Below, one piece after another: positions 2,219 to 14,763 of a stretch of 29,576 nucleotides of DNA. A program made the position numbers and the translations under genes. Below the pieces are notes generated by a model. That model ran no database searches and was not told the origin of the DNA. It worked only from the letters and a program-made list of their open reading frames with translations. How positions within the stretch are numbered: the stretch's first letter is position 1; each line of letters starts with the position of its first letter. Origin of the DNA: Ahrensia sp. (GTDB lineage Bacteria > Pseudomonadota > Alphaproteobacteria > Rhizobiales > Rhizobiaceae); NCBI GenBank assembly GCA_002698425.1, contig NZXU01000084.1:1-29576 (forward strand), written 5' to 3'.

Positions 2219-2234
2219 CTAACGAGCCGTTAAC
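2219..2234 (+). promoter_or_regulatory. Near-consensus CtrA box before tolQ
   Basis: CTAA, seven bases, then TTAAC: one mismatch from the CtrA recognition sequence TTAA-N7-TTAAC. It lies 163 bp before the tolQ start in the ybgC-tolQ gap. Exact copies occur upstream of pal and of both outer-membrane barrel genes. Two GANTC sites, the target of the CcrM methyltransferase, also lie in this gap, at 2241-2245 and 2381-2385. Whether CtrA binds here is inference. Confidence 0.4.
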
Positions 2235-2396
2235 GATAACGATTCATGAATGGGCAGGCCCTGATACGGCCTCGGCGACGCCTTTGTTTAACCCAATTTG
2301 TCGTCGAGAGCCTGAGCGGTCCGCGCTCGGGATGGTCCATGACAGGCGGGCCGCATAACGCAATTCAACCTCACATCCGGGACTCGAGGGGAAGAC

Positions 2397-3125
2397 ATGG
2401 AACAAATCGGGTTGGCCGCGCCAGGAGCAGAATTGTCGCTCTGGGCGCTGTTCATGCAGGCGGGCTTCGTCGTCAAGATCGTCATGATCGGTCTGCTGGC
2501 CGCTTCGGTGTGGTCCTGGGCGGTGATGATTGACAAGACGCTGGCCTATGGCCGCATGCGCCGCGCCTTCAACCGTTTCGAGGATACGTTCTGGTCCGGC
2601 CAGTCGCTGGAAGAACTCTACCGTTCGCTTGCCGAAAAGAAGCCGACGGGCATGGGCGCACTCTTCGTCGCGGCGATGCGCGAGTGGAAGAAATCGTTCG
2701 AGCGCGGCGCGAAATCGCCGATCAGCCTGCAGACGCGCATCGACCGCGCCATGGATGTGGCGCTGTCGCGCGAGATGGAGGCGATCGAGGGCCGGCTCGG
2801 CTTTCTTGCGTCCGTCGGTTCGGCCGCGCCCTTTATCGGACTGTTCGGCACGGTGGTCGGCATCATGACTTCCTTCCAGGCGATCGCCGGTTCGGAATCG
2901 ACTAATCTCGCCGTCGTTGCGCCGGGTATCGCGGAGGCGCTTTTGGCGACCGCGCTCGGCCTGGTCGCCGCCATTCCCGCCGTCATCGGCTACAACAAGC
3001 TGACCTCCGACGCGGCCAAGCTCAGCGCGCGCATGGAAGGCTTCGCCGACGAGTTCTCGGCGATCCTGTCGCGCCAGATCGACGAGCGCTCGGCGGCCGG
3101 CCAGCGCGCCCAGGCGGCGCAATGA
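2397..3125 (+). CDS. tolQ: Tol-Pal proton channel subunit TolQ
   Basis: 242 residues, normal length for TolQ (MotA/TolQ/ExbB family). Three membrane helices are visible at about 20-44, 136-158 and 175-198, with the large cytoplasmic loop between the first two (includes DRAMDVALSREMEAIEG). The second and third helices contain the conserved GLFGTVVGIM and ALLATALGLVAAIPAV. TolQ forms a pentamer around two TolR subunits in the inner membrane and turns proton flow into force on TolA, which pulls Pal to the division site. GAGGGGA upstream gives a good ribosome site. tolR follows after 24 bases, as in most tol-pal operons. Confidence 0.97.
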   Translation: MEQIGLAAPGAELSLWALFMQAGFVVKIVMIGLLAASVWSWAVMIDKTLAYGRMRRAFNRFEDTFWSGQSLEELYRSLAEKKPTGMGALFVAAMREWKKSFERGAKSPISLQTRIDRAMDVALSREMEAIEGRLGFLASVGSAAPFIGLFGTVVGIMTSFQAIAGSESTNLAVVAPGIAEALLATALGLVAAIPAVIGYNKLTSDAAKLSARMEGFADEFSAILSRQIDERSAAGQRAQAAQ

Positions 3126-3149
3126 GGCGGCGGAACACGGGGTGATCCG

Positions 3150-3605
3150 ATGGCCATGTCAATGAACACAGGCGGCGCCCGTTCGGGACGCCGGGGACGC
3201 AGGGGCCGCAGCAAGGCGCTGATGTCGGAGATCAACGTCACGCCCTTCGTGGACGTGATGCTGGTGCTCCTGATCATCTTCATGGTCGCCGCGCCGCTGC
3301 TGACGGTCGGCGTGCCGATCGACCTGCCCGAAACGCGCGCGTCGGCGCTCAATTCCGACACGCAGCCGATCACGATCTCGATCCGTGACAATGGCGAGAT
3401 CTATATCCAGGAGACAGCGATCCCGATCGATGAAGTCGTGCCGAAGCTCGAGGCTATCGCCCAGACCGGCTATGACGAGCGCATCTATATCCGTGGCGAC
3501 CAGAACGCCGATTACGGCACGATCATGCAGGTCATGGGCCGGATCAACCAGGCGGGTTTCAAGAATCTCGGCCTCGTAACCCTGCAGGAACAGCAGGACC
3601 AATAA
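3150..3605 (+). CDS. tolR: Tol-Pal proton channel subunit TolR
   Basis: 151 residues. A short basic N-terminus (RRGRRGRSK) is followed by one membrane helix at about 34-55, beginning INVTPFVDVMLVLLIIF. D35 in that helix matches the proton-carrying aspartate of the ExbD/TolR family. The rest is the periplasmic domain with the conserved ITISIRDNGEIYI strand. TolR couples proton flow through TolQ to TolA and can engage the cell wall. The first of several close ATG codons is used (3150, 3156, 3162); a GGGGTGATC stretch upstream favours 3150 but does not decide it. tolA begins 4 bases after the stop. Confidence 0.96.
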   Translation: MAMSMNTGGARSGRRGRRGRSKALMSEINVTPFVDVMLVLLIIFMVAAPLLTVGVPIDLPETRASALNSDTQPITISIRDNGEIYIQETAIPIDEVVPKLEAIAQTGYDERIYIRGDQNADYGTIMQVMGRINQAGFKNLGLVTLQEQQDQ

Positions 3606-3609
3606 ATCC

Positions 3610-4653
3610 ATGCGCGTAGGCCTCGTCACATCGGGCATTCTGCACGCGGTCGTCCTCACCTGGGGGATGGTCGCGTTGCACGCGCCGGACGCGTTCGACG
3701 TGCCGGACGTGGAATCGCTGCCCGTCGAACTGGTGACGCTCGCCGAGATCACGCAGGTGCAGAAGGGCGCGGAAGACGCCAAGAAGGACGGGCCGGCGAC
3801 TCCGGTGCCGACCGAGAAGCCGCCCGTCGATCCGGAAGCCGAGAATGTCGGCGACCAGAAGCTCGACCAGCAAACGCCCGAGACCGCCGAGCAGAAGCCG
3901 GTCGAAGTCGACCAAGCGCAGCTGCCGAAGCCGTCGGAAGCACCGACCCCCGAACCGGAGCCCGCTCCCGAGCCGATCGAGCAGGTTGCGCCGGAACCGG
4001 AACCCGAGCCGACGACCGAGATGGCCGCGTTGCCGGAGCCGAAGCAGGAGGTCGAACCCGACCCCGTGCCCGAGGTCGCGCCGCAGCCGGCGGAGACGCA
4101 GCCGCAATCTCGCATCCCGGACCGCGTGCCGCTGCCGACGCGGCGGCCCGAACCGCCCAAGGCCCAGACCGCCAAGACCGACGAGCGCCGCAAGACCGAG
4201 CCGGAGCCGGCACAGTCGGCGCAGCGCACCCCGGAAAGCGACTCGAAGGATGACGAGGTCGCGGCCCTTCTGAACCAGGAAAAAGCTTCCGGCGGCGGCG
4301 CGCAGCGCACGACCCGTGACGCGTCGCTCGGCGGCCAGCGCAACACGGGTGGCTCGGAACTGACGCAGAGCGAGATGGATGCGCTGCGCAACCAGATCCA
4401 GGCGTGTTGGAGCCCGCCGGCGGCGGTCGATGCGGCGGAACTGAAGGTGTCCATCCGCTTCAAACTGGATTCTTCGGGCATGGTCGACGGCTCGCCGTCG
4501 GTCACCAAGAGCTCCGGAAACCGCGCCGCCGACGACAGCGCCAAGCGCGCGATCCTGCGATGCGGCCAGAACGGCTATAACCTGCCACCGGAAAAATACG
4601 ACGCCTGGCGCGACGTGGTGGTGAATTTCGATCCGAGCGAGATATACAGGTGA
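3610..4653 (+). CDS. tolA: TolA, inner-membrane to Pal/TolB linker protein
   Basis: 347 residues in three parts. An N-terminal membrane anchor at about 4-23 ([20 protein letters not shown]) includes the S-x3-H pattern used by TolA/TonB proteins to contact their motor. A long linker at about 60-225 is rich in Pro, Glu and Gln ([15 protein letters not shown]). A C-terminal domain at about 252-347 contains [19 protein letters not shown] and [16 protein letters not shown], the alphaproteobacterial TolA/TonB C-terminal fold; C266 and C318 could form a disulfide. TolA carries force from TolQR to Pal and TolB across the periplasm. The linker resembles TonB linkers more than the Ala/Lys-rich helix of E. 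coli TolA. The gene begins 4 bases after tolR. Confidence 0.94.
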
Positions 4654-4708
4654 GGCCAGCCTCCCGCGTGACGCCCGGATCAGGAACGGGACGAGAAGGA
4701 CAGACGGA

Positions 4709-6022
4709 ATGAAAAAGCTGACCCTGCGATCGATCGCCTTCGTGATGATGGCCATTAGCGCACTCGCCTTCGGTGGACAGCCGGCCCGCGCGCTGGTCGA
4801 GATCGACATCAACCAGGGCAATATCGAGCCATTGCCCATCGCGATCACCGATTTCATCTCTTCCGACGGCATCGGGGCGCAGATCTCCGGCGTGATCGCC
4901 AACGACCTGAAGAGTTCCGGCCTGTTCGCGCCGATCGGCAAGGGCGCCTTCATCGAGAAGGTGTCCAATCCCGATGTCTCGCCGCGTTTCGAGGACTGGC
5001 GGGTGATCAACGCGCAGGCGCTGGTGATCGGCCGCGTCGTCGAGGAGGGCGACGGACGCCTGCGCGCCGAGTACCGGCTGTGGGATACGTTCGCGGGCGA
5101 GCAGATGGCCGGCGAGCAGTATTTCACCAATCGCGACAACTGGCGCCGGGTCGCCCACATCATCGCCGACGCGATCTACCAGCGTCTGACCGGCGAGAAG
5201 GGTTATTTCGATACGCGCGTCGTCTTCGTTTCCGAATCCGGCCCGCGCGACGCTCGCGTCAAGAAGCTGGCGATCATGGACCAGGACGGGGCGAATGTGC
5301 GCTATCTGACGCGCGGCGACAACATCGTGCTGACGCCGCGCTTCTCGCCGACACGCCAGGAAATCACCTATATGGATTTCGCCGGCGGCGAACCGAAGGT
5401 CTATCTGCTGCAGCTCGAAACCGGGCAGCGCGAACTGGTCGGCGATTTCCCCGGCATGACCTTCAGTCCGCGCTTTTCGCCGGACGGCCAGCAGGTGGTG
5501 ATGAGCCTCGAGCAGGGCGGCAACGCCAATATCTACTCGATGGATTTGCGCACGCGCCGCACGACGCGGCTGACCAATTCCAACGCCATCGACACTTCGC
5601 CGTCCTTCTCGCCGGACGGGTCGCGGGTGGTGTTCGAATCCGACCGGGGCGGGCGCCAGCAGCTCTATGTGATGGGCACCGGCGGCGGCGAGCCGCAGCG
5701 CATCTCGTTCGGCAACGGCTCCTACTCGACGCCGGTCTGGTCGCCGCGCGGCGATCTGATCGCCTTCACCAAGCAGTCGGGCGGGCAGTTCTCCATCGGC
5801 GTGATGCGCCCGGACGGGTCCGGCGAGCGTATCCTGACGACGGGTTTCCACAATGAAGGGCCGACCTGGGCCCCGAACGGCCGCGTGCTGATGTTCTTCC
5901 GCCAGGCTGCCGGGGCGGGCGGCCCGCAGCTCTACTCGATCGATCTGACCGGCCGCAACGAGCGGCAGATTCCGACGCCGGAATTCGCCTCCGACCCGGC
6001 ATGGTCGCCGCTTTTGGAGTAG
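4709..6022 (+). CDS. tolB: Tol-Pal periplasmic protein TolB
   Basis: 437 residues, normal TolB length. A signal peptide ends at ARA, residues 26-28. The N-terminal TolB domain (about 30-165) begins with [18 protein letters not shown] six-bladed beta-propeller follows, with the WD40-like PD40 repeats visible as [53 protein letters not shown] and [13 protein letters not shown]. In the cell TolB binds Pal and is displaced when TolA pulls. It lies 55 bases after tolA and shares its transcript; 143 bases before pal contain a separate regulatory site. Confidence 0.97.
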
Positions 6023-6069
6023 CCGCCCGGAAGACGCCGCATTTTCGCCATATCGCGGAAACGAAGCGA

Positions 6070-6085
6070 TTAACGCCCGATTAAC
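6070..6085 (+). promoter_or_regulatory. CtrA box (TTAA-N7-TTAAC) before pal
   Basis: An exact TTAA, seven bases, TTAAC, ending 80 bp before the pal start codon in the tolB-pal gap. This is the full recognition sequence of the cell-cycle regulator CtrA of alphaproteobacteria. Another TTAAC occurs at 6105-6109. The position suggests a promoter for pal separate from the tolQRAB transcript. The match is seen in sequence; binding and direction of regulation are inferred. Confidence 0.55.
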
Positions 6086-6165
6086 CCTGTTTCTTGTGCC
6101 GCGGTTAACTCCGACAAGGTTACCAAAGCTTCAACGAATTCATTCAAATCCCAGGAGAACCGGCC

Positions 6166-6663
6166 ATGCGCCGAATTCCAAATACTCCCGTCAAGATCGC
6201 CGCGATCTGCCTTCTCGCCGGCTTCGCCGTCACAGGCTGCGCCAGCAAGAAGCCGCTGCCGAACAGCGCCAGCGAACTCGGCCTGAACGGAGCCGTCGCG
6301 GGCTCCTCGCAGGACTTCACCGTCAATGTCGGCGACCGCATCTTCTTCGATACGGACTCTTCCGCGATCCGCGCCGACGCCCAGCAGACGCTGGCCCGCC
6401 AGGCGCAATGGCTGAACCAGTATCCGCAATATTCGATCACCATCGAGGGCCATGCCGACGAACGGGGCACGCGCGAATACAACATCGCGCTGGGCGCGCG
6501 CCGTGCCGCCGCAACCCGCGACTTCCTCGCCTCGCGCGGCGTGAATGCAAGCCGTATTCGCACGATCTCCTACGGCAAGGAACGCCCGGTTGCGACCTGC
6601 GACGACATCTCTTGCTGGTCGCAGAACCGCCGCGCCGTCACGGCCCTGGGCGGCGGAAGCTGA
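6166..6663 (+). CDS. pal: Peptidoglycan-associated lipoprotein Pal
   Basis: 165 residues. A lipoprotein signal peptide ends in the lipobox VTGC, with C25 as the lipidated residue. The OmpA-like peptidoglycan-binding domain covers about 60-163: RIFFDTDSSAIRADA, TIEGHADERGTREYNIALG and RIRTISYGKERP, including the Asp and Arg residues that hold diaminopimelate. Pal anchors the outer membrane to the cell wall and is concentrated at the division site by TolQRAB. A good CAGGAGAA ribosome site precedes the ATG. The gene has a CtrA-type box upstream and a strong terminator 22 bases after the stop, so it can be a separate unit even though readthrough from tolB is likely. Confidence 0.97.
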   Translation: MRRIPNTPVKIAAICLLAGFAVTGCASKKPLPNSASELGLNGAVAGSSQDFTVNVGDRIFFDTDSSAIRADAQQTLARQAQWLNQYPQYSITIEGHADERGTREYNIALGARRAAATRDFLASRGVNASRIRTISYGKERPVATCDDISCWSQNRRAVTALGGGS

Positions 6664-6684
6664 TCCAATCGACATAGCTTAGGG

Positions 6685-6710
6685 AAATAGCGGCTTCGGC
6701 CGCTATTTTC
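6685..6710 (+). terminator. Intrinsic terminator after pal
   Basis: A perfect 10-bp stem (AAATAGCGGC with its complement) closed by a TTCG tetraloop at 6695-6698. The 3' arm ends in TTT and one more T follows before a C, so the U-tract is short. It separates pal from cpoB. Confidence 0.8.
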
Positions 6711-6723
6711 GTTTCGGATTTCA

Positions 6724-6737
6724 GACAAAGTTTTGTC
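6724..6737. promoter_or_regulatory. 14-bp palindrome before cpoB
   Basis: GACAAA, GT, TTTGTC: perfect 6-bp arms around a 2-base centre, between the pal terminator and cpoB. The tiny centre suits a protein-binding DNA site better than an RNA hairpin. It lies about where a cpoB promoter is needed, since the terminator cuts cpoB off from pal. The regulator is unknown and the site may be chance. Confidence 0.3.
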
Positions 6738-6792
6738 GAATTGGACCTCTTAATGATACAGGCTGTCCCAGCCGTGTCCGAGAAAGCGGGAG

Positions 6793-7761
6793 ATGTCAGA
6801 CATAATGGTTTCAATGCCGGTTTTATTCAGAGCGACATTCGCCGTCGCCGCGCTCGCCGCTGGCGGGACGCAGGCCGCCGAATTGCGCGCGCTGCCGCAA
6901 GGCAGCTACGAGGTGGCGCAGGCGGCCGATCCGCGCGTCTACCAACTCGAAGAACAGGTTCGCTCGCTTAACGGCAAGGTCGAGGAGCTGACGTTTCAGC
7001 TTCTCGAATTGCAGGAGCAGCTGCGCAAGATCCAGGAAGACAACGAGTTCCGCTTCCAGCAACTGGAGGGCGCCGGCCAGCCTATGGATGGCAACGGTAC
7101 GTCCGGCGATGCCGGCGACATGGCGGTCCCCGGGGCAACCGAGACGGCCAATGCCGCCCCGCAGGCCGCTCCGGCGCAGTCGCCGCAGCCTGCGCCGGAC
7201 GTCAATGTCGCGCGGAACAGCGGCAACAGCAGCCGGGTACTCGGGGCCGCGCCCCGCAATCTCGGGACGCTGACTGTCGACGGAAAGGGCAATGTCGTCG
7301 ACGGGAGCGTCGATTTCTCGCCGAACCAGATCGATCAGGCGATTGACGGCGAGGCCGTCGCCAGCGTTCCGCCCGCCGAGGAACCGGAAGCCTATTACCG
7401 CTCGGGCTACCAGCGCGTGCTCAATGGCGACTACAAGGATGCCGAGGGCATCTTCCGCTCCTTCGTCGAATTGTTCCCGAACGATCCGCTGGCGCCGGAT
7501 GCGCGCTTCTGGCTTGCCGAGAGCGTGCGCGCGCAAGGCCGTCCGGAAGAGGCCGTCGAAATCTTCATCGCCTTGCGCAAGGCCTATCCGGACATGCAGA
7601 AGGCGCCGGAGACGCTGCTCAAGATCGGTCAGATCATGTTCGACCTCGGCGACCGCGATGTTGCCTGCGTCACCTTTGCGGATGCCGAATCGAGCTATCC
7701 GAACATGTCCGCTACGGTGCGTGCGCGCATCAGCGAAGAGCGCATCCGCGCCAAGTGCTGA
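6793..7761 (+). CDS. cpoB: Tol-Pal associated periplasmic protein CpoB (YbgF)
   Basis: 322 residues. It has a signal peptide (hydrophobic about 10-26, ending TQAA), then a coiled coil at about 48-92 (YQLEEQVRSLNGKVEELTFQ and following), a low-complexity Ala/Pro/Gln linker at about 100-140, and TPR repeats at about 198-320 (AYYRSGYQRVLNGDYKDAE, FWLAESVRAQGRPEEAV). In E. coli CpoB links Tol energy use to PBP1B and septal wall synthesis. The start is uncertain: GGGAG touches the ATG at 6793, so ATG 6805 (12 bases downstream of it) or 6814 may be used; all keep the signal peptide. tilS begins inside its last codons. Confidence 0.94.
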   Translation: MSDIMVSMPVLFRATFAVAALAAGGTQAAELRALPQGSYEVAQAADPRVYQLEEQVRSLNGKVEELTFQLLELQEQLRKIQEDNEFRFQQLEGAGQPMDGNGTSGDAGDMAVPGATETANAAPQAAPAQSPQPAPDVNVARNSGNSSRVLGAAPRNLGTLTVDGKGNVVDGSVDFSPNQIDQAIDGEAVASVPPAEEPEAYYRSGYQRVLNGDYKDAEGIFRSFVELFPNDPLAPDARFWLAESVRAQGRPEEAVEIFIALRKAYPDMQKAPETLLKIGQIMFDLGDRDVACVTFADAESSYPNMSATVRARISEERIRAKC

Positions 7762-8858
7762 ACGCCGACAACGTGGCCGCCACGGTCCGGCGTATCCTTT
7801 CCTCCGTCCATTTCGACACCCATCACCGGATTGCGATCGCCCTTTCAGGCGGCGGCGATTCGACGGCACTCCTCTGTCTCCTGCATGACTTTTTCTCGCA
7901 ACGCGGCGAGGAAGACCGTCTCTTCGCGGTAACGGTCGATCACGGCTTGCGTCCGGACTCCGCTGCCGAGGCTCGGCGCGCCGGAGAATTCTGCGCGGCG
8001 CTCGGCATTCCCCACACCATCCGGCGCTGGGAGGGCGAGAAGCCCGTCGCCGGATTGCAGGCGGCGGCGCGCGAGGCGCGCTACCGGTTGCTGGCGGAAG
8101 CCGCGGACGATGCAGATTGCAGCCTGGTGATGACCGGGCACACGCTCGATGACCAGGCCGAAACCGTGGCGATGCGCCGGGAACGCGGCGCCGGACGCGG
8201 GCTTTCCGGCATTGCACCGGCGACGCTCCATGACAAACGGATCTGGTTCGTCCGCCCGCTGATCGGTCAGCGCCGCGCCGCCTTGCGGGCCTTTCTGACC
8301 GAACGCCGGCAGGACTGGATCGATGATCCGTCGAATACCGACCCGCGCTTCGAGCGGGTGCGGATGCGCGCGGCCATCAATCCGGAACAGTGTGATGCGG
8401 CGGATTTCCGCGTCGCCTTCGAGGCGCGACGCGGGGAGGCGGAACGCGCGGCGGCGATCCTTGGCGACGAGGACGTCTGGCTGTTCGACCGCACTAAGCG
8501 GACCGCCGAACTCGTCGCTGACACGGCGACGGGCAAGGAGGCGTTTCCTCTGGCGCTCGCCGTCGTCATGGGCTGGGCGGGACATGGCGCGCATCTGCCG
8601 ACCGGGCCTGTGCTGGAGAAGGCGGCGGCCTTCTGCCGCGACGCGACTGGCGGGCAGAAGATCACGGCGGCGGGATGCCTGTTGGCAAAGGCGCAGGGAC
8701 GCGTAACAATCGGGCGCGAGACCCGCAACAGGCGGGAGGCGGGATTCGGTTTCGACCATCTCCTGCCGAGCCCCGACCATGCGCTCGCCGAGGCGCTGGC
8801 GCGACGGATCGGGGCGACGTCCTATCCGCCGCCGCCGCTTTCCGGTTACCCTGATTGA
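7755..8858 (+). CDS. tilS: tRNA(Ile)-lysidine synthase TilS
   Basis: 367 residues. The PP-loop ATPase motif SGGGDST is at 31-37 (IAIALSGGGDSTALLCLLHDF), followed by VTVDHGLRPDSAAEARRAG and MTGHTLDDQAETVAMR, the TilS signature region. The enzyme attaches lysine to C34 of the tRNA that reads AUA, turning CAU into an isoleucine anticodon; it is essential in most bacteria. It starts with GTG at 7755, seven bases inside the end of cpoB, so the two are translationally coupled. At 367 residues it is shorter than the roughly 430 of E. coli TilS, mostly in the C-terminal part, and ends in a Pro-rich tail. The catalytic half is complete. Confidence 0.94.
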   Translation: MLNADNVAATVRRILSSVHFDTHHRIAIALSGGGDSTALLCLLHDFFSQRGEEDRLFAVTVDHGLRPDSAAEARRAGEFCAALGIPHTIRRWEGEKPVAGLQAAAREARYRLLAEAADDADCSLVMTGHTLDDQAETVAMRRERGAGRGLSGIAPATLHDKRIWFVRPLIGQRRAALRAFLTERRQDWIDDPSNTDPRFERVRMRAAINPEQCDAADFRVAFEARRGEAERAAAILGDEDVWLFDRTKRTAELVADTATGKEAFPLALAVVMGWAGHGAHLPTGPVLEKAAAFCRDATGGQKITAAGCLLAKAQGRVTIGRETRNRREAGFGFDHLLPSPDHALAEALARRIGATSYPPPPLSGYPD

Positions 8859-8887
8859 ACAGAAACGTCGCAGAACTGCCGGATTGC

Positions 8888-8919
8888 CTTGGCAATGTCC
8901 GGCATCGCACCTATGTTTG
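8888..8919 (+). promoter_or_regulatory. Heat-shock (sigma-32) promoter for ftsH
   Basis: CTTG at 8888-8891, 18 bases, then CCTATGTTTG at 8910-8919. This fits the alphaproteobacterial sigma-32 consensus as I recall it (CTTG, N17-18, CYTATNTNNG) at every defined base. It lies in the tilS-ftsH gap and would start transcription near 8925. ftsH is a heat-shock gene in many bacteria. The rpoH gene in this window has the same elements with the same spacing. Confidence 0.65.
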
Positions 8920-8930
8920 ACTGAAGAATT

Positions 8931-8951
8931 GCCGCCGGCGTAATCGGCGGC
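8931..8951 (+). other. Leader stem-loop before ftsH
   Basis: GCCGCCG, 7-base loop, CGGCGGC: a 7-bp GC stem ending 17 bases before the ftsH ATG. It would lie near the 5' end of an mRNA started from the heat-shock promoter just upstream and adjoin the GAGACGGA ribosome site at 8960-8967. No U-run follows, so it is not a terminator. A role in mRNA stability or translation is only a possibility. Confidence 0.4.
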
Positions 8952-8968
8952 CCAGCTATGAGACGGAA

Positions 8969-10906
<1,938 letters not shown>

Positions 10907-10936
10907 GCCCCTTAACCGTGTCCGAGAATCAAAGGG

Positions 10937-10961
10937 AAAGGCCGCCTCGGCGGCCTTTTTT
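10937..10961 (+). terminator. Intrinsic terminator after ftsH
   Basis: AAAGGCCG pairs with CGGCCTTT around a short CCTCGG loop, followed by a T-run to 10961. It lies 30 bases after the ftsH stop, between ftsH and glmM, which is then likely to need its own promoter in 10962-11034. I see no convincing -35/-10 pair in that stretch. Confidence 0.85.
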
Positions 10962-11034
10962 CGTTGAGTCGCGTGGTGTATAGGAGAGCGCCAGGCAGGG
11001 CGCAGAATCATCCCGTGCAACCGGCAGGCATTTC

Positions 11035-12384
11035 ATGAAACGCAAATATTTCGGCACCGACGGCATACGCGGAACCGCCAACGCTCATCCTATGACGCCC
11101 GAAGTGGCGATGAAGGTCGGCATGGCGGTCGGCGTGACGTTCCGGCGTGGCGCGCATCGCAATCGCGTCGTCATCGGCAAGGATACGCGGCTGTCGGGCT
11201 ATATGCTGGAAAACGCCATGGTCGCCGGCTTCACCGCCGCCGGGATGGACGTGTTCCTGCTCGGCCCGGTGCCGACGCCCGCCGTGGCGATGCTGACGCG
11301 GTCGCTGCGCGCCGATATCGGGGTAATGATCTCCGCGTCCCACAATCCCTTCCACGATAACGGCATCAAGCTGTTCGGCCCCGACGGCTACAAGCTGTCG
11401 GACGAGAAGGAGCTGGAGTTGGAGCGGCTGCTCGGCCAGGACCTGTCGCGCAAGCTCGCCAAGCCGGACAAGATCGGCCGGGCGAAACGCGTCGAGGGCG
11501 ATCTCTACCGCTATATCGAGTTCGCCAAGCGGACCTTCCCGAAGGACATGACGCTGTCGGGCATGCGCATTGTCGTCGACTGCGCCAATGGCGCGGCCTA
11601 CAAGGCGGCGCCGGCGGCGTTGTGGGAGCTGGGCGCCGAGGTAGTGACGATCAATAACGAGCCGGACGGCTTCAACATCAACCTGGAATGCGGTTCGACC
11701 AATCCGACCGCCCTGTCGAGGAAGGTCGATGAAGTCCGCGCCGATATCGGCATCGCGATGGATGGCGACGCGGACCGCATGCTGATCGTCGACGAGAAAG
11801 GCGTGGTTGTCGACGGCGACCAGCTGATGGCGATGATCGCGGAGGACTGGCATGCCGGCGACCGCCTGACCGGCGGCGGCATCGTCGCGACGGTCATGTC
11901 CAATCTGGGGCTGGAGCGCTTTCTCGAAGACAAGGGTCTCGGACTGGCCCGCACAAAGGTCGGCGACCGCTATGTGGTCGAGCACATGCGCGAGAACGGC
12001 TACAATATCGGCGGCGAGCAATCCGGCCATATCGTCCTGTCGGACTATTCGACGACCGGCGACGGCCTCATCTCCGCGCTGCAGGTTCTCGCCTGTATCC
12101 GCGCCGCCGATCGGCCGGCGAGTGAAGTCTGCAAGAAATTCGAACCGGTCCCGCAGATTTTGAAGAATGTCCGCTTCGCCGGCGGCACGCCGCTGGAAGA
12201 GAAATCCGTGCAATCTGCCATCGACGCCGGTCGCGATCGTCTCGGCAGCGGCAGGCTGGTCATTCGTCCGTCGGGAACGGAACCGGTGATCCGCGTGATG
12301 GCGGAAGGTGATGACCGCATGTTGGTCGAACAAGTCGTGGACGATATTGTTGGCGTTATTGCGAGTCACAAGACGGCTGCTTGA
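11035..12384 (+). CDS. glmM: Phosphoglucosamine mutase GlmM
   Basis: 449 residues, normal length. It begins [13 protein letters not shown], the typical start of the enzyme. The phosphoserine loop [15 protein letters not shown] places the active serine at S102; the magnesium loop DGDADR is at 243-248; the sugar loop GGEQSGH and the C-terminal phosphate-binding [12 protein letters not shown] are present. It converts glucosamine-6-phosphate to glucosamine-1-phosphate for UDP-GlcNAc, the precursor of cell wall and lipopolysaccharide. The ftsH-glmM order is widespread in proteobacteria, and both are envelope-related. Terminators lie on both sides. Confidence 0.98.
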
Positions 12385-12408
12385 ACAATAGAAATCAATA
12401 TTTTGAAG

Positions 12409-12433
12409 ACGGCGCCGCGAGGCGCCGTTTTTT
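12409..12433 (+). terminator. Intrinsic terminator after glmM
   Basis: A perfect 8-bp stem ACGGCGCC / GGCGCCGT with a GCGA (GNRA) tetraloop at 12417-12420, then six T to 12433. It lies 25 bases after the glmM stop. Confidence 0.9.
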
Positions 12434-12458
12434 GTTTGTCGTGCGCGACATGGTGAAC

Positions 12459-12480
12459 AAACACGGTAAAAAAACACGGT
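12459..12480 (+). repeat. Two AAACACGGT direct repeats before the first porin gene
   Basis: AAACACGGT at 12459-12467 and 12472-12480, a 13-bp period. The last base of the second copy is the first base of the CtrA box that follows. The pair is a plausible operator for a second regulator on the same face of the promoter region, or chance in an A-rich stretch. Confidence 0.4.
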
Positions 12481-12495
12481 TAAGTGCGTTTTAAC
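12480..12495 (+). promoter_or_regulatory. CtrA box (TTAA-N7-TTAAC) before first porin gene
   Basis: Exact TTAA, GTGCGTT, TTAAC. It ends 71 bp before the start codon at 12567, almost the same distance as the matching boxes before pal and the second barrel gene. No other gene lies between it and the porin gene. Binding by CtrA is inferred from the sequence match. Confidence 0.6.
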
Positions 12496-12566
12496 CTTTC
12501 AAGGGCAATTTGAGGCACGAGGTTGCAATAAGCCTGTAACGAGTTTGGGCCTTGGAAGGACACATC

Positions 12567-13433
12567 ATGAAGACTGCAGCGAAATATCTGCTCGGCGCCG
12601 TGGCGCTTGCAGCATCCGGCACCGCCCCGGCGATGGCCGCGGATATCTACGAACCGGCGGTCATCGAGACGCCGGCCTATTCGCCGCCGGAGGTGATGCC
12701 CGCCAAGGTTTCCGGCTGGTACCTGCGCGGCGATGTCGGCTATGCCTGGCACCGGACGATGGACGCCACCTATGCGATCGCCGATACGGGACCGACACTC
12801 ATCGAAGCGGCGCTCTACGGCGAGAGCTTCCGCGGCTCCTACACGATCGGCGCCGGCGCCGGTTACAAGTTCAACAATTACCTGCGCGCCGACCTGACGC
12901 TGGACTGGTGGGGCAATGGCAGGTTCACCGGCCACACCTACGGCACCTGTGACTATGGCGGCGGTCCGGAAGCCTGCACATCCACCGATATCGCGACGTT
13001 CAGCGCGCTGACGCTGATGGCCAACGCCTATGTCGACTTCGGCACATATGGCCGTTTCACCCCCTATGCGGGCGGCGGCTTCGGCGGATCTTATGTCCAC
13101 TGGGGCACGCTCGAAAACGAGGCCTGCCTCGATTCCGACTCGGCGAACTGCCAGACCTTCTACCATGGCGGCAAGTATGAATACCGCTTCGCCTATGCCC
13201 TGATGGCCGGCGTTTCCGTCGACGTCTCCTGCAAGCTCGCCGCGGATGTCGGCTACAAGTTCCAGCACATCGCCAGCGGCAGCATGTTCGGCACGGTGGC
13301 CAATGCCGGCTACGGACGCGACAGCGGCATCACCTCGCATCAGGTCAAGGCCGGTCTGCGCTACAAGTTCGGCGCCTGCCAGCCGGCACCGGAGCCGGTC
13401 TACATTCCCGAACCGCTTCCGGTCTACAAGTAA
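12567..13433 (+). CDS. Outer-membrane beta-barrel protein, Omp25/31 type
   Basis: 288 residues. A signal peptide ends AMA after residue 24. The mature protein starts with a short Pro/Tyr-rich segment, then GWYLRGDVGYAW, YTIGAGAGYKFNNYLRADLTLDWWG, MANAYVDF, RFTPYAGGGFGGSYV and HQVKAGLRYKF: the alternating strands of the Omp25/Omp31 (opacity-like) eight-stranded barrels abundant in Rhizobiales outer membranes. ATG 12567 is chosen because GGAAGGA at 12554-12560 fits it; an in-frame TTG at 12552 would overlap that site. Oddly, the barrel is followed by a Pro/Glu tail (QPAPEPVYIPEPLPVYK) instead of ending in an aromatic residue. It is a tandem paralogue of the next gene. Exact function is not known from sequence. 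Confidence 0.9.
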   Translation: MKTAAKYLLGAVALAASGTAPAMAADIYEPAVIETPAYSPPEVMPAKVSGWYLRGDVGYAWHRTMDATYAIADTGPTLIEAALYGESFRGSYTIGAGAGYKFNNYLRADLTLDWWGNGRFTGHTYGTCDYGGGPEACTSTDIATFSALTLMANAYVDFGTYGRFTPYAGGGFGGSYVHWGTLENEACLDSDSANCQTFYHGGKYEYRFAYALMAGVSVDVSCKLAADVGYKFQHIASGSMFGTVANAGYGRDSGITSHQVKAGLRYKFGACQPAPEPVYIPEPLPVYK

Positions 13434-13460
13434 GACCGGGTCACTCCGGACACATCGACG

Positions 13461-13488
13461 CCCGGCTGCGCAAGCAGCCGGGTTTTTT
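13461..13488 (+). terminator. Intrinsic terminator after first porin gene
   Basis: A perfect 9-bp stem CCCGGCTGC / GCAGCCGGG with a GCAA (GNRA) tetraloop at 13470-13473, then TTTTTT. It lies 27 bases after the stop codon. Confidence 0.92.
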
Positions 13489-13523
13489 CGTGCCCGGCGA
13501 AAAATCGCAGTTAATGAACATGC

Positions 13524-13539
13524 TTAACCACGACTTAAC
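13524..13539 (+). promoter_or_regulatory. CtrA box (TTAA-N7-TTAAC) before second porin gene
   Basis: Exact TTAA, CCACGAC, TTAAC, ending 78 bp before the ATG at 13618. An extra TTAA half-site lies at 13511-13514, and a GANTC methylation site (GAATC) at 13581-13585. With a terminator just upstream, this gap must hold the promoter of the gene. Confidence 0.6.
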
Positions 13540-13617
13540 CCTTGTCCTTAATAGTGCGTGAAGAGGGCGTAGTCGGATGCGAATCCGCCGTGTCCAGGTC
13601 AGCGAGAGAGTTGAACC

Positions 13618-14589
13618 ATGACGACTTTGACAAAACGGATCGGAGCCATCGGTGTGGCGGCAGTGTGTCTTGCCGCCATTCAGGCGAGGGCCGCGGATTT
13701 GGACGGCATTTTCATCGATGATGCGAATTTCATCGAGAAACCGGCGGAACTGGGCTCCGGTTGGTATCTGCGCGGCGATATTTACTACAACGTCGCGAAG
13801 AATCAGCGCCAGGGCTATTTCTACGACGAGTTTTCGGGCGACACGGTCGATTACACATTCGGCGACGGTTTCGGATACGGCGTCGGCATGGGCTACCGGT
13901 TCAACAGCTGGTTGCGCATGGATGCGACGGTGGATCGTCCGGTCTTCTCGGAGGTGACCTCAACGGCCAGCGAAACCTTCAGGGGATCGCGCTATATCGA
14001 TGCGACCTATATCGATGGGGGCGGCAACCAGGTCACCAACACCCGTCTTATCACTTTCACGGCGAACGGCACCGTGACCGCGAGCGAGTGTAACGCGGCC
14101 GAATTGGCCGGCGGCTGCGCGGGTGTCGGAGACATCGTGGCGCCGATCGACGGTTCGCGTGTTGACGAACTCGGTTATTCCGTCTGGACGGCGATGGCCA
14201 ACGCCTATGTCGATCTGCCGACAGTGGCGCGGTTTACGCCCTATGTCGGCGGCGGTATCGGCCTGTCACGTGCTGCGGCATGGTACAAGCTGACCGTCGA
14301 CTGCGTTCCCAATGGCGCCGAAGCTTGCGGCTACCCTGCAGGTGGCACAGGCGAGATCCTCAACGACCAGGTGCTGGTGGATTCCACTTATACGAGGTGG
14401 CTGCCGACATGGTCGGTTCAGACCGGCGTATCCTACGCGGTCACCGACAATCTCGATCTGGATCTCGGCTACAAATATATGCGGATCATGAATGTGGCCT
14501 CCGTCCTCGAGGACGCGGGATTCACGATGGAGAAGAAGGATCTGGATCTGCACCAGGTTCGCGTCGGCCTGCGCTATTCCATCTGGTAG
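13618..14589 (+). CDS. Outer-membrane beta-barrel protein, paralogue
   Basis: 323 residues. A signal peptide ends ARA at residue 25. Barrel strands parallel those of the preceding gene: SGWYLRGDIYYN, GYGVGMGYRFNSWLRMDATVD, MANAYVDL, RFTPYVGGGIGLSRAA, LDLDLGYKYMRI and HQVRVGLRYSIW. It has longer surface-loop candidates at about 112-180 (Thr/Asn-rich, and ECNAAELAGGCAG with two Cys) and 220-250. It ends with an aromatic residue (Trp), the usual sorting signal for the barrel assembly machinery, unlike its neighbour. The pair looks like an old tandem duplication that has diverged. GAGAGAG precedes the ATG. Confidence 0.9.
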   Translation: MTTLTKRIGAIGVAAVCLAAIQARAADLDGIFIDDANFIEKPAELGSGWYLRGDIYYNVAKNQRQGYFYDEFSGDTVDYTFGDGFGYGVGMGYRFNSWLRMDATVDRPVFSEVTSTASETFRGSRYIDATYIDGGGNQVTNTRLITFTANGTVTASECNAAELAGGCAGVGDIVAPIDGSRVDELGYSVWTAMANAYVDLPTVARFTPYVGGGIGLSRAAAWYKLTVDCVPNGAEACGYPAGGTGEILNDQVLVDSTYTRWLPTWSVQTGVSYAVTDNLDLDLGYKYMRIMNVASVLEDAGFTMEKKDLDLHQVRVGLRYSIW

Positions 14590-14643: not shown

Positions 14644-14714
14644 TTGCCGATCACTTTTGCCGCAGCCGCATGAATCCACTTGACCGGAAATGAGCAAAGG
14701 AATATCGCCGCACG

Positions 14715-14763
14715 TGGGACACCTCTCCCCAACGAGAGGCAACTATCTGAAAGGGTAGCCACG
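14715..14763 (+). ncRNA. serC leader RNA (alphaproteobacterial serC motif)
   Basis: Two hairpins lie directly before serC. The first is CCTCTC / GAGAGG at 14722-14727 and 14734-14739 with a six-base loop. The second is CTATC / GGTAG at 14743-14747 and 14754-14758, with TGAAAG in the loop. The second stem and loop contain AAAGGG, the ribosome-binding site of serC, five bases before the ATG. This layout matches the serC leader described in alphaproteobacteria (a conserved RNA motif upstream of serC-serA whose last stem overlaps the ribosome site). The ligand or signal is unknown to me. The family match is from memory of structure and context, not a model search. Confidence 0.75.

Follow-up and report, generated by a model that had tools for sequence, protein, structure and literature searches.

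In Caulobacter, promoters with full sites for the response regulator CtrA carry the motif TTAA-N7-TTAA near -35; according to the main text of that study the 5' end of activating full boxes is found near -35, and at -39 at ctrA P2, and ftsK is among the targets (PMC4287350). In Brucella, papers citing the CtrA regulon of B. abortus (Francis 2017) state that CtrA binds the promoters of outer-membrane genes and that the level of Omp25 depends on CtrA (PMC10787603, PMC6377625, PMC10538546). The direct CtrA regulon described for Sinorhizobium meliloti contains 54 genes including flagellins and cell-envelope genes (PMC4433202), and in predicted CtrA regulons across the alphaproteobacteria envelope-biogenesis genes are reported as enriched in 10 organisms (PMC2877005). 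In Rhodobacter sphaeroides another response regulator, CenR of the CenKR system, is likewise described as a direct activator of tolQRAB (PMC9275681). Here we analyse a stretch of 29,576 nucleotides from Ahrensia sp. (contig NZXU01000084.1, the window), in which CtrA-type boxes, TTAA-N7-TTAAC, precede tolQ, pal and two genes of small outer-membrane beta-barrels, called omp1 and omp2. With a probability of roughly three in four, the four sites are CtrA operators, through which omp1 and omp2, and also pal, would be activated with a predivisional peak, while tolQRAB would be bound with either sign of control.

The motif and the predicted distance between box and start at omp1 and omp2 are like those of the Caulobacter promoters, although 'tol' is not mentioned in the main text of PMC4287350. 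As in Brucella, CtrA would be connected to outer-membrane genes, a connection the original prediction had referred to and which is published, including for Omp25. However, the CtrA-bound region of omp25 is located from -389 to -337 (PMC10538546), whereas the exact boxes described here end 71 to 80 bp before the start codon, and neither pal nor tolQ is named as CtrA target in the relevant passages of the three Brucella papers. CenR differs by its reported motif, TGA-N8-TGA, and by leaving pal unregulated (PMC9275681). CtrA control of Omp25 and of outer-membrane composition is thus already known from Brucella. The present analysis adds the fixed boxes of tolQ and pal, the layout shared by pal and the barrel genes, and the apparent phylogenetic limits. 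A report of CtrA control of tolQ or pal was not found in the main texts of the literature searched, and the main text of PMC2877005 contains none of the terms tol, pal, omp, or 'outer membrane'.

Boxes in the window and in related genomes

Three exact boxes and one copy with a single mismatch are present in the window where they had been predicted, and an exact box was found in none of 100 dinucleotide shuffles. Matches with at most one mismatch number seven, at four places, compared to a mean of 0.48 and a maximum of 4 in 100 shuffles. Based on the density in the nearest genome (16 distinct exact sites in about 5.1 Mb) the window is expected to contain 0.09 exact sites, and the Poisson chance of at least three is about 1e-4, which is a rough value because the finding had been picked for its boxes. 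A chance origin of the boxes is excluded. Measured by coordinates, the boxes end 71 bp (omp1), 78 bp (omp2), 80 bp (pal), and 162 bp (tolQ) before the start codon, the first three distances agreeing with those predicted. In addition, 11 of the 19 TTAA of the window fall into the four gaps, which together comprise 739 bp.

Two further observations of the prediction, that all boxes lie between genes and that all point in the same direction, hold true but were dropped as evidence. The motif is nearly palindromic, with an exact match on the minus strand at 12479-12494 and one mismatch on that strand at the pal and omp2 sites, and the common orientation is therefore weak evidence. All four boxes are located between genes with Pfam support (some are overlapped by mechanical open reading frames (ORFs) of the opposite strand). 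However, wrongly spaced TTAA pairs of the nearest relative are intergenic in 16 of 18 cases tested (from 21 distinct pairs, three adjoining an N7 site being excluded), compared to 15 of its 16 exact sites, and thus the intergenic location is weak evidence as well. The site contexts in the nearest relative and in S. meliloti are based on a simple GC-position gene caller and not on annotation.

For comparison we used the best 80 of 591 TolB loci with up to 10 kb on each side. Close kin are included, so that the counts are not independent. Genes were placed by tblastn; rows were kept if they showed an aligned start in the first 60 residues and had at least 300 bp upstream, and a score of at least 8/9 within 300 bp upstream was counted as a box. 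The gap comparison across relatives, which the original prediction had proposed as a check, revealed boxes upstream of tolQ in 70 of 78 loci, of pal in 63 of 79, and of 81 of the 85 outer-membrane protein (OMP) genes following glmM, 73 of the latter being exact. When the same upstream DNA was dinucleotide-shuffled in 100 rounds, the means were only 2.3, 2.3, and 3.1, and the maxima 6, 6, and 8 for tolQ, pal, and the OMP genes, respectively. The OMP count refers to distinct genes, 85 in 56 loci; earlier separate counts for omp1 and omp2 overlap, as one gene could be the best match of both. Boxes are rare at the neighbouring genes: they are found at tolR in 0/74, tolB in 1/76, ybgF in 0/74, tilS in 0/75, ftsH in 3/75, glmM in 4/68, serC in 0/43, and serA in 0/13 cases. 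This neighbour scan excluded loci whose match starts before base 5500, which gives denominators of 72 instead of 78 for tolQ and 77 instead of 79 for pal. S. meliloti (locus L012) has 8/9 boxes at tolQ and pal, and exact boxes at the two OMP genes after glmM. The information content of the box columns was rejected as evidence, since the sequences had been selected by their match to the box.

More distant alphaproteobacteria, with TolB 58-64% identical, carry a box scoring 8/9 or more in one of 19 genomes at tolQ and in one of 19 at pal, which is near the shuffle level. This sample consists of 20 of the 111 matching genomes, mainly the better TolB matches, with 350 bp upstream scored, and in one of the 20 neither tolQ nor pal was within reach. 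Because of this difference the wiring of tolQ and pal looks specific to Rhizobiaceae-like families, which fits the steady Pal level of Caulobacter (PMC10790692) and the CenR control of tolQRAB in Rhodobacter (PMC9275681).

Promoter layout at the barrel genes, pal and tolQ

TTAA-N7-TTAA is present in the promoters of 75 of the 85 OMP genes. Counting from the start of the box, A at +27 is combined with T at +31 in 72 of these 75 promoters, whereas any other offset between 17 and 49 reaches at most 14. The hexamer at +26 to +31, found in the same 72 promoters, reads as the -10 element, which would place the 5' end of the box about 38 bp before the predicted start; this geometry played no part in the selection of the promoters. 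In 55 of the 75 cases a half-site T.AA is located 13 bp 5' of the box. At omp1 and omp2 the box would thereby cover the -35 region of a sigma-70-type promoter, with the extra half-site 13 bp further 5'; the predicted starts are near 12518 (omp1) and 13562 (omp2). Because of this arrangement both genes are most likely activated by phosphorylated CtrA (CtrA~P), and their expression would peak in predivisional cells.

The pal gene shares the array TTAA-N9-TTNN-N7-TTAA in 67 of 79 relatives. In these 67, G is present at +2 in 81% and A at +3 in 73%, G at +24 and T at +26 are invariant, and the A/T pair is found in 37. In the window itself, the corresponding place of the pal promoter (TTACCA) does not make a good -10. 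Concerning the position of the box in the -35 region, omp1 and omp2 fit by the predicted -10, but the fit of pal (37/67) and tolQ is not clean. The window contains a full exact distal box in the pal gap, while most relatives keep just the half-site TTAACC there. The exact pal box is a local version, the majority retaining the distal half-site together with a proximal TTGA-N7-TTAAC. Given the same half-site array, pal would probably be activated like the barrel genes.

The tolQ promoters have NTAA-N7-TTAAC in 69 of 78 relatives, immediately followed by ATAA and then by T at +28 and A at +30. The four promoters are therefore not of one layout, both OMP genes and pal being alike and tolQ being different. 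The predicted common envelope regulon is partly supported: its boxes are not due to chance, are located at similar positions in most of the 80 relatives, have the spacing of CtrA sites, and recur at known types of CtrA targets, whereas CtrA binding, the direction of control, and common timing with division are predictions. At tolQ CtrA would probably bind to the conserved box, either activating or repressing.

The tolQ leader (2236-2300) contains more conserved stretches (ATAA, T+28, A+30, and a CTTT..CCAAATTT-like block) that are outside every explanation offered here. A known RNA element was considered for this leader and rejected, as there was no Rfam match.

The proposed regulator and its rivals

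In three near relatives that substituted for the window's own genome (G001, the nearest and the source of locus L001, whose TolB is 99% identical; G002, an Oricola; and G003), the motif with N7 is matched 22, 25, and 22 times on both strands. The neighbouring spacings are rarer, with 12, 13, and 6 matches for N4-6 pooled and 12, 18, and 4 for N8-10 pooled, so that a spacing of 7 is about six times as common as these six other spacings are on average. In the 80 loci, the sequence outside the four gaps has 49 matches with N7 and at most 14 for every other spacing from 0 to 21, although this set still holds some second OMP genes.

The other genes with this box include known types of CtrA targets, as far as the chosen neighbours were scanned. 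In the nearest relative, exact boxes belong to FtsK, a PdhS-like kinase, a LapG-like protease, a curlin-like gene, MscS, FeeM, and others, and in the Oricola genome to a RepA-type (ParA/MerR) gene and a Cache/HAMP sensor. For several of these names the NCBIfam match is below the cut-off, including PdhS and the FtsK fragments, while FtsK was confirmed by Pfam in the Oricola genome. The scans covered chosen neighbour genes in these two genomes (L084 alone for the RepA-type loci of Oricola), and in S. meliloti 15 proteins around 13 of the 19 distinct exact sites plus the two OMP sites. The S. meliloti sites include a flagellin with two boxes, FtsK, FtsE, RepA, a BTLCP protease, and both OMP genes after glmM, but also DksA, RpoD, and an acetyltransferase. 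The flagellins of S. meliloti are proven direct CtrA targets (PMC4433202). CtrA is encoded in all three related genomes searched for it (420-426 bits at a cut-off of 350), two of which, those of the nearest relative and of Oricola, have an 8/9 box 262 bp upstream of ctrA. Because the same box is found at FtsK, PdhS-like, RepA-type, and flagellin genes and CtrA is encoded in the three genomes searched for it, the boxes are probably CtrA operators.

Several observations weigh against this assignment. The sites have the form expected for CtrA, TTAA-N7-TTAA(C) with a preference for a 7-bp spacer (three exact, one 8/9), but the reversed-pattern control is about equally common in the three genomes (20, 11, and 18 compared to 22, 25, and 22), and with one mismatch it is even commoner in the nearest relative (405 vs. 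179). Thus the motif is enriched against some controls but not against every one. AATT and TTAA probably differ in their background use, and the spacing test was therefore given more weight. Two of the 16 exact sites of the nearest relative are not clearly promoters, one being located between gene ends and one inside a called ORF, and the stretch around the S. meliloti ctrA gene (L130) does not contain an 8/9 box. The Pal level is reported as constant over the Caulobacter cell cycle (PMC10790692), and starvation of Caulobacter is listed as leading to a rise of Tol proteins and a fall of CtrA (PMC3073932, Table 3). The main text of the S. meliloti CtrA study names neither pal nor omp, its lone 'tol' belonging to 'tolerated' (PMC4433202), and the S. 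meliloti Tol-Pal paper never mentions CtrA (PMC7327166). The CenR activation of tolQRAB in Rhodobacter has to be added here.

The boxes could instead bind another envelope regulator, CenR or ChvI/BvrR, without any connection to the cell cycle. Besides the CenR example, it is reported that BvrR binds upstream of omp25 in Brucella (PMC10538546), that depletion of PBP1a in Agrobacterium alters Tol-Pal genes (in a ChvG-ChvI paper, PMC9731437), and that in Rhizobium etli depletion of RdsA lowers tolB while ctrA is unchanged (PMC9022086). We regard this explanation as unlikely, since the box recurs at flagellin, FtsK, RepA-type, and PdhS-like genes, and CenR was rejected as owner of the boxes because of its different motif. 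Regulators besides CtrA could, however, act too. It is even less probable that the boxes have no regulatory effect and are conserved relics or part of ordinary AT-rich promoter DNA. TTAA pairs with other spacings are intergenic as well, but such DNA would explain neither the preference for spacing 7 nor the similar positions in most relatives, nor 63 to 81 boxes where shuffles yield two to three.

A better case can be made that CtrA binds at tolQ but represses or merely modulates, a CATAAT-like element after the box being a -10 covered by CtrA. C A T A A at +16 to +20 is kept at 81-97% of the 69 tolQ loci, and half-sites over the -10 are reported to repress in Caulobacter (PMC4287350). However, the window's element begins with G instead of C, and a full box near -28 fits neither published class well, which leaves this arrangement possible but somewhat doubtful. 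The assignment of all four sites to CtrA is the best of the explanations considered, with binding, activation, start sites, and timing being predictions.

Some boxes of the relatives are noted in their own right. Similar exact boxes in two relatives (L088 1501, L123 2024) are located between the 3' ends of converging genes, with no obvious promoter. In the nearest relative, exact boxes are found about 64 bp before the curlin-like gene and the gene of a FeeM-type N-acyl amino acid synthase (L111 2188, L116 2020). Exact boxes are also present 86 bp (L084, Oricola) and 65 bp (L209, S. meliloti) upstream of RepA-type genes, and the same RepA-type gene arrangement is found on two more Oricola contigs (L119, L120). 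Replication of plasmids may be coordinated with the cell cycle.

The genes of the window form a row on the plus strand: a 4HBT thioesterase, tolQ, tolR, tolA, tolB, pal, ybgF, a tilS-type gene, ftsH, glmM, the two small barrels, serC, and serA (Table 1). The TolB protein shares 99% identity with its counterpart in the draft genome of Ahrensia sp. SAT55, and 92-93% with those of two Oricola genomes. From the names of its relatives we take the organism to belong to the order Hyphomicrobiales. The barrels had been predicted to be porins. Both match the small-barrel family OMP_b-brl, and omp2 in addition scores marginally above the threshold of PF02462, 'Opacity family porin protein' (23.0 bits, cut-off 21). 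The Rfam serC leader RF00517 is located at 14712-14763 (70.5 bits, cut-off 35); the true start of serC is probably downstream of 14680, from where its ORF was called. GANTC, the CcrM methylation site, is depleted across the whole window (52 found, 171 expected from shuffles), as is expected where CcrM methylation operates. A GATTC beside the tolQ box was rejected as conserved CcrM site because it is present in the window and in L001-L003 but not at that position in the other aligned rows shown.

Table 1. Putative promoter elements and genes at the tolQRAB, pal and barrel loci of the window
Feature	Coordinates	Strand	Evidence
CtrA-type box CTAACGAGCCGTTAAC of tolQ, 8/9 (1 mismatch)	2219..2234	+	NTAA-N7-TTAAC in 69/78 relatives
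ATAA directly 3' of tolQ box; possible -10 or second half-site	2236..2239	+	offsets +17 to +20 kept at 83-97%, 69 relatives
tolQ	2397..3125	+	TIGR02796 287 bits, cut-off 221
tolR, tolA, tolB (remainder of tolQRAB cluster)	3150..6022	+	Pfam ExbD, TonB_2, TolB_N/PD40
Distal exact CtrA-type box of pal; wide conservation for second half only	6070..6085	+	exact match; relatives' alignment
Proximal pal box TTGTGCCGCGGTTAAC, 7/9 (most relatives TTGA-N7-TTAAC)	6094..6109	+	TTAA-N9-TTNN-N7-TTAA in 67/79 relatives
pal	6166..6663	+	TIGR02802 146 bits, cut-off 125
Third half-site TAAA, 13 bp 5' of omp1 box	12467..12470	+	T.AA at -13 in 55/75 OMP promoters
Exact CtrA-type box of omp1; minus strand exact too, one base shifted	12480..12495	+	
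Predicted omp1 -10 element CAATTT	12506..12511	+	A+27/T+31 in 72/75 relatives' OMP promoters
omp1, small outer-membrane beta-barrel (OMP_b-brl)	12567..13433	+	PF13505, scanned from 12552
Third half-site TTAA, 13 bp 5' of omp2 box	13511..13514	+	
Exact CtrA-type box of omp2	13524..13539	+	
Predicted omp2 -10 element AATAGT	13550..13555	+	
omp2, small outer-membrane beta-barrel (OMP_b-brl)	13618..14589	+	PF13505

A possible link between Tol-Pal supply and the division cycle

We hypothesize that these genes are expressed in time with division. Any such timing would be specific to the lineage, because 18 of 19 distant alphaproteobacteria lack the tolQ box, 18 of 19 lack the pal box, and Pal is constant in Caulobacter. 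It is conceivable, though we consider it slightly more probable that it did not happen, that in Rhizobiaceae-like families CtrA took over both halves of Tol-Pal and the barrel pair as one envelope module, in which pal and the OMP genes share a promoter of three half-sites (TTAA-N9-TTNA-N7-TTAACC followed by the -10). Other alphaproteobacterial orders would lack this rewiring. If this were true, constriction of the outer membrane would be tied to the cell-cycle clock, in contrast to Caulobacter with its constant Pal and to Rhodobacter with tolQRAB under CenR.

In S. meliloti, cells depleted of TolQ or Pal are reported to remain as predivisional doublets, which resembles a block in the final step of division, and TolQ and Pal are found together with RgsP at the growth zones (PMC7327166). 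The conserved CtrA-type boxes at the tolQ and pal units are one direct candidate answer to the question of how Tol-Pal is supplied in unipolar growers. The boxes could also help to explain why loss of CtrA in Brucella upsets both division and the outer membrane. Taken with their conservation, they suggest that in this group the construction of the envelope is coupled to the division cycle.

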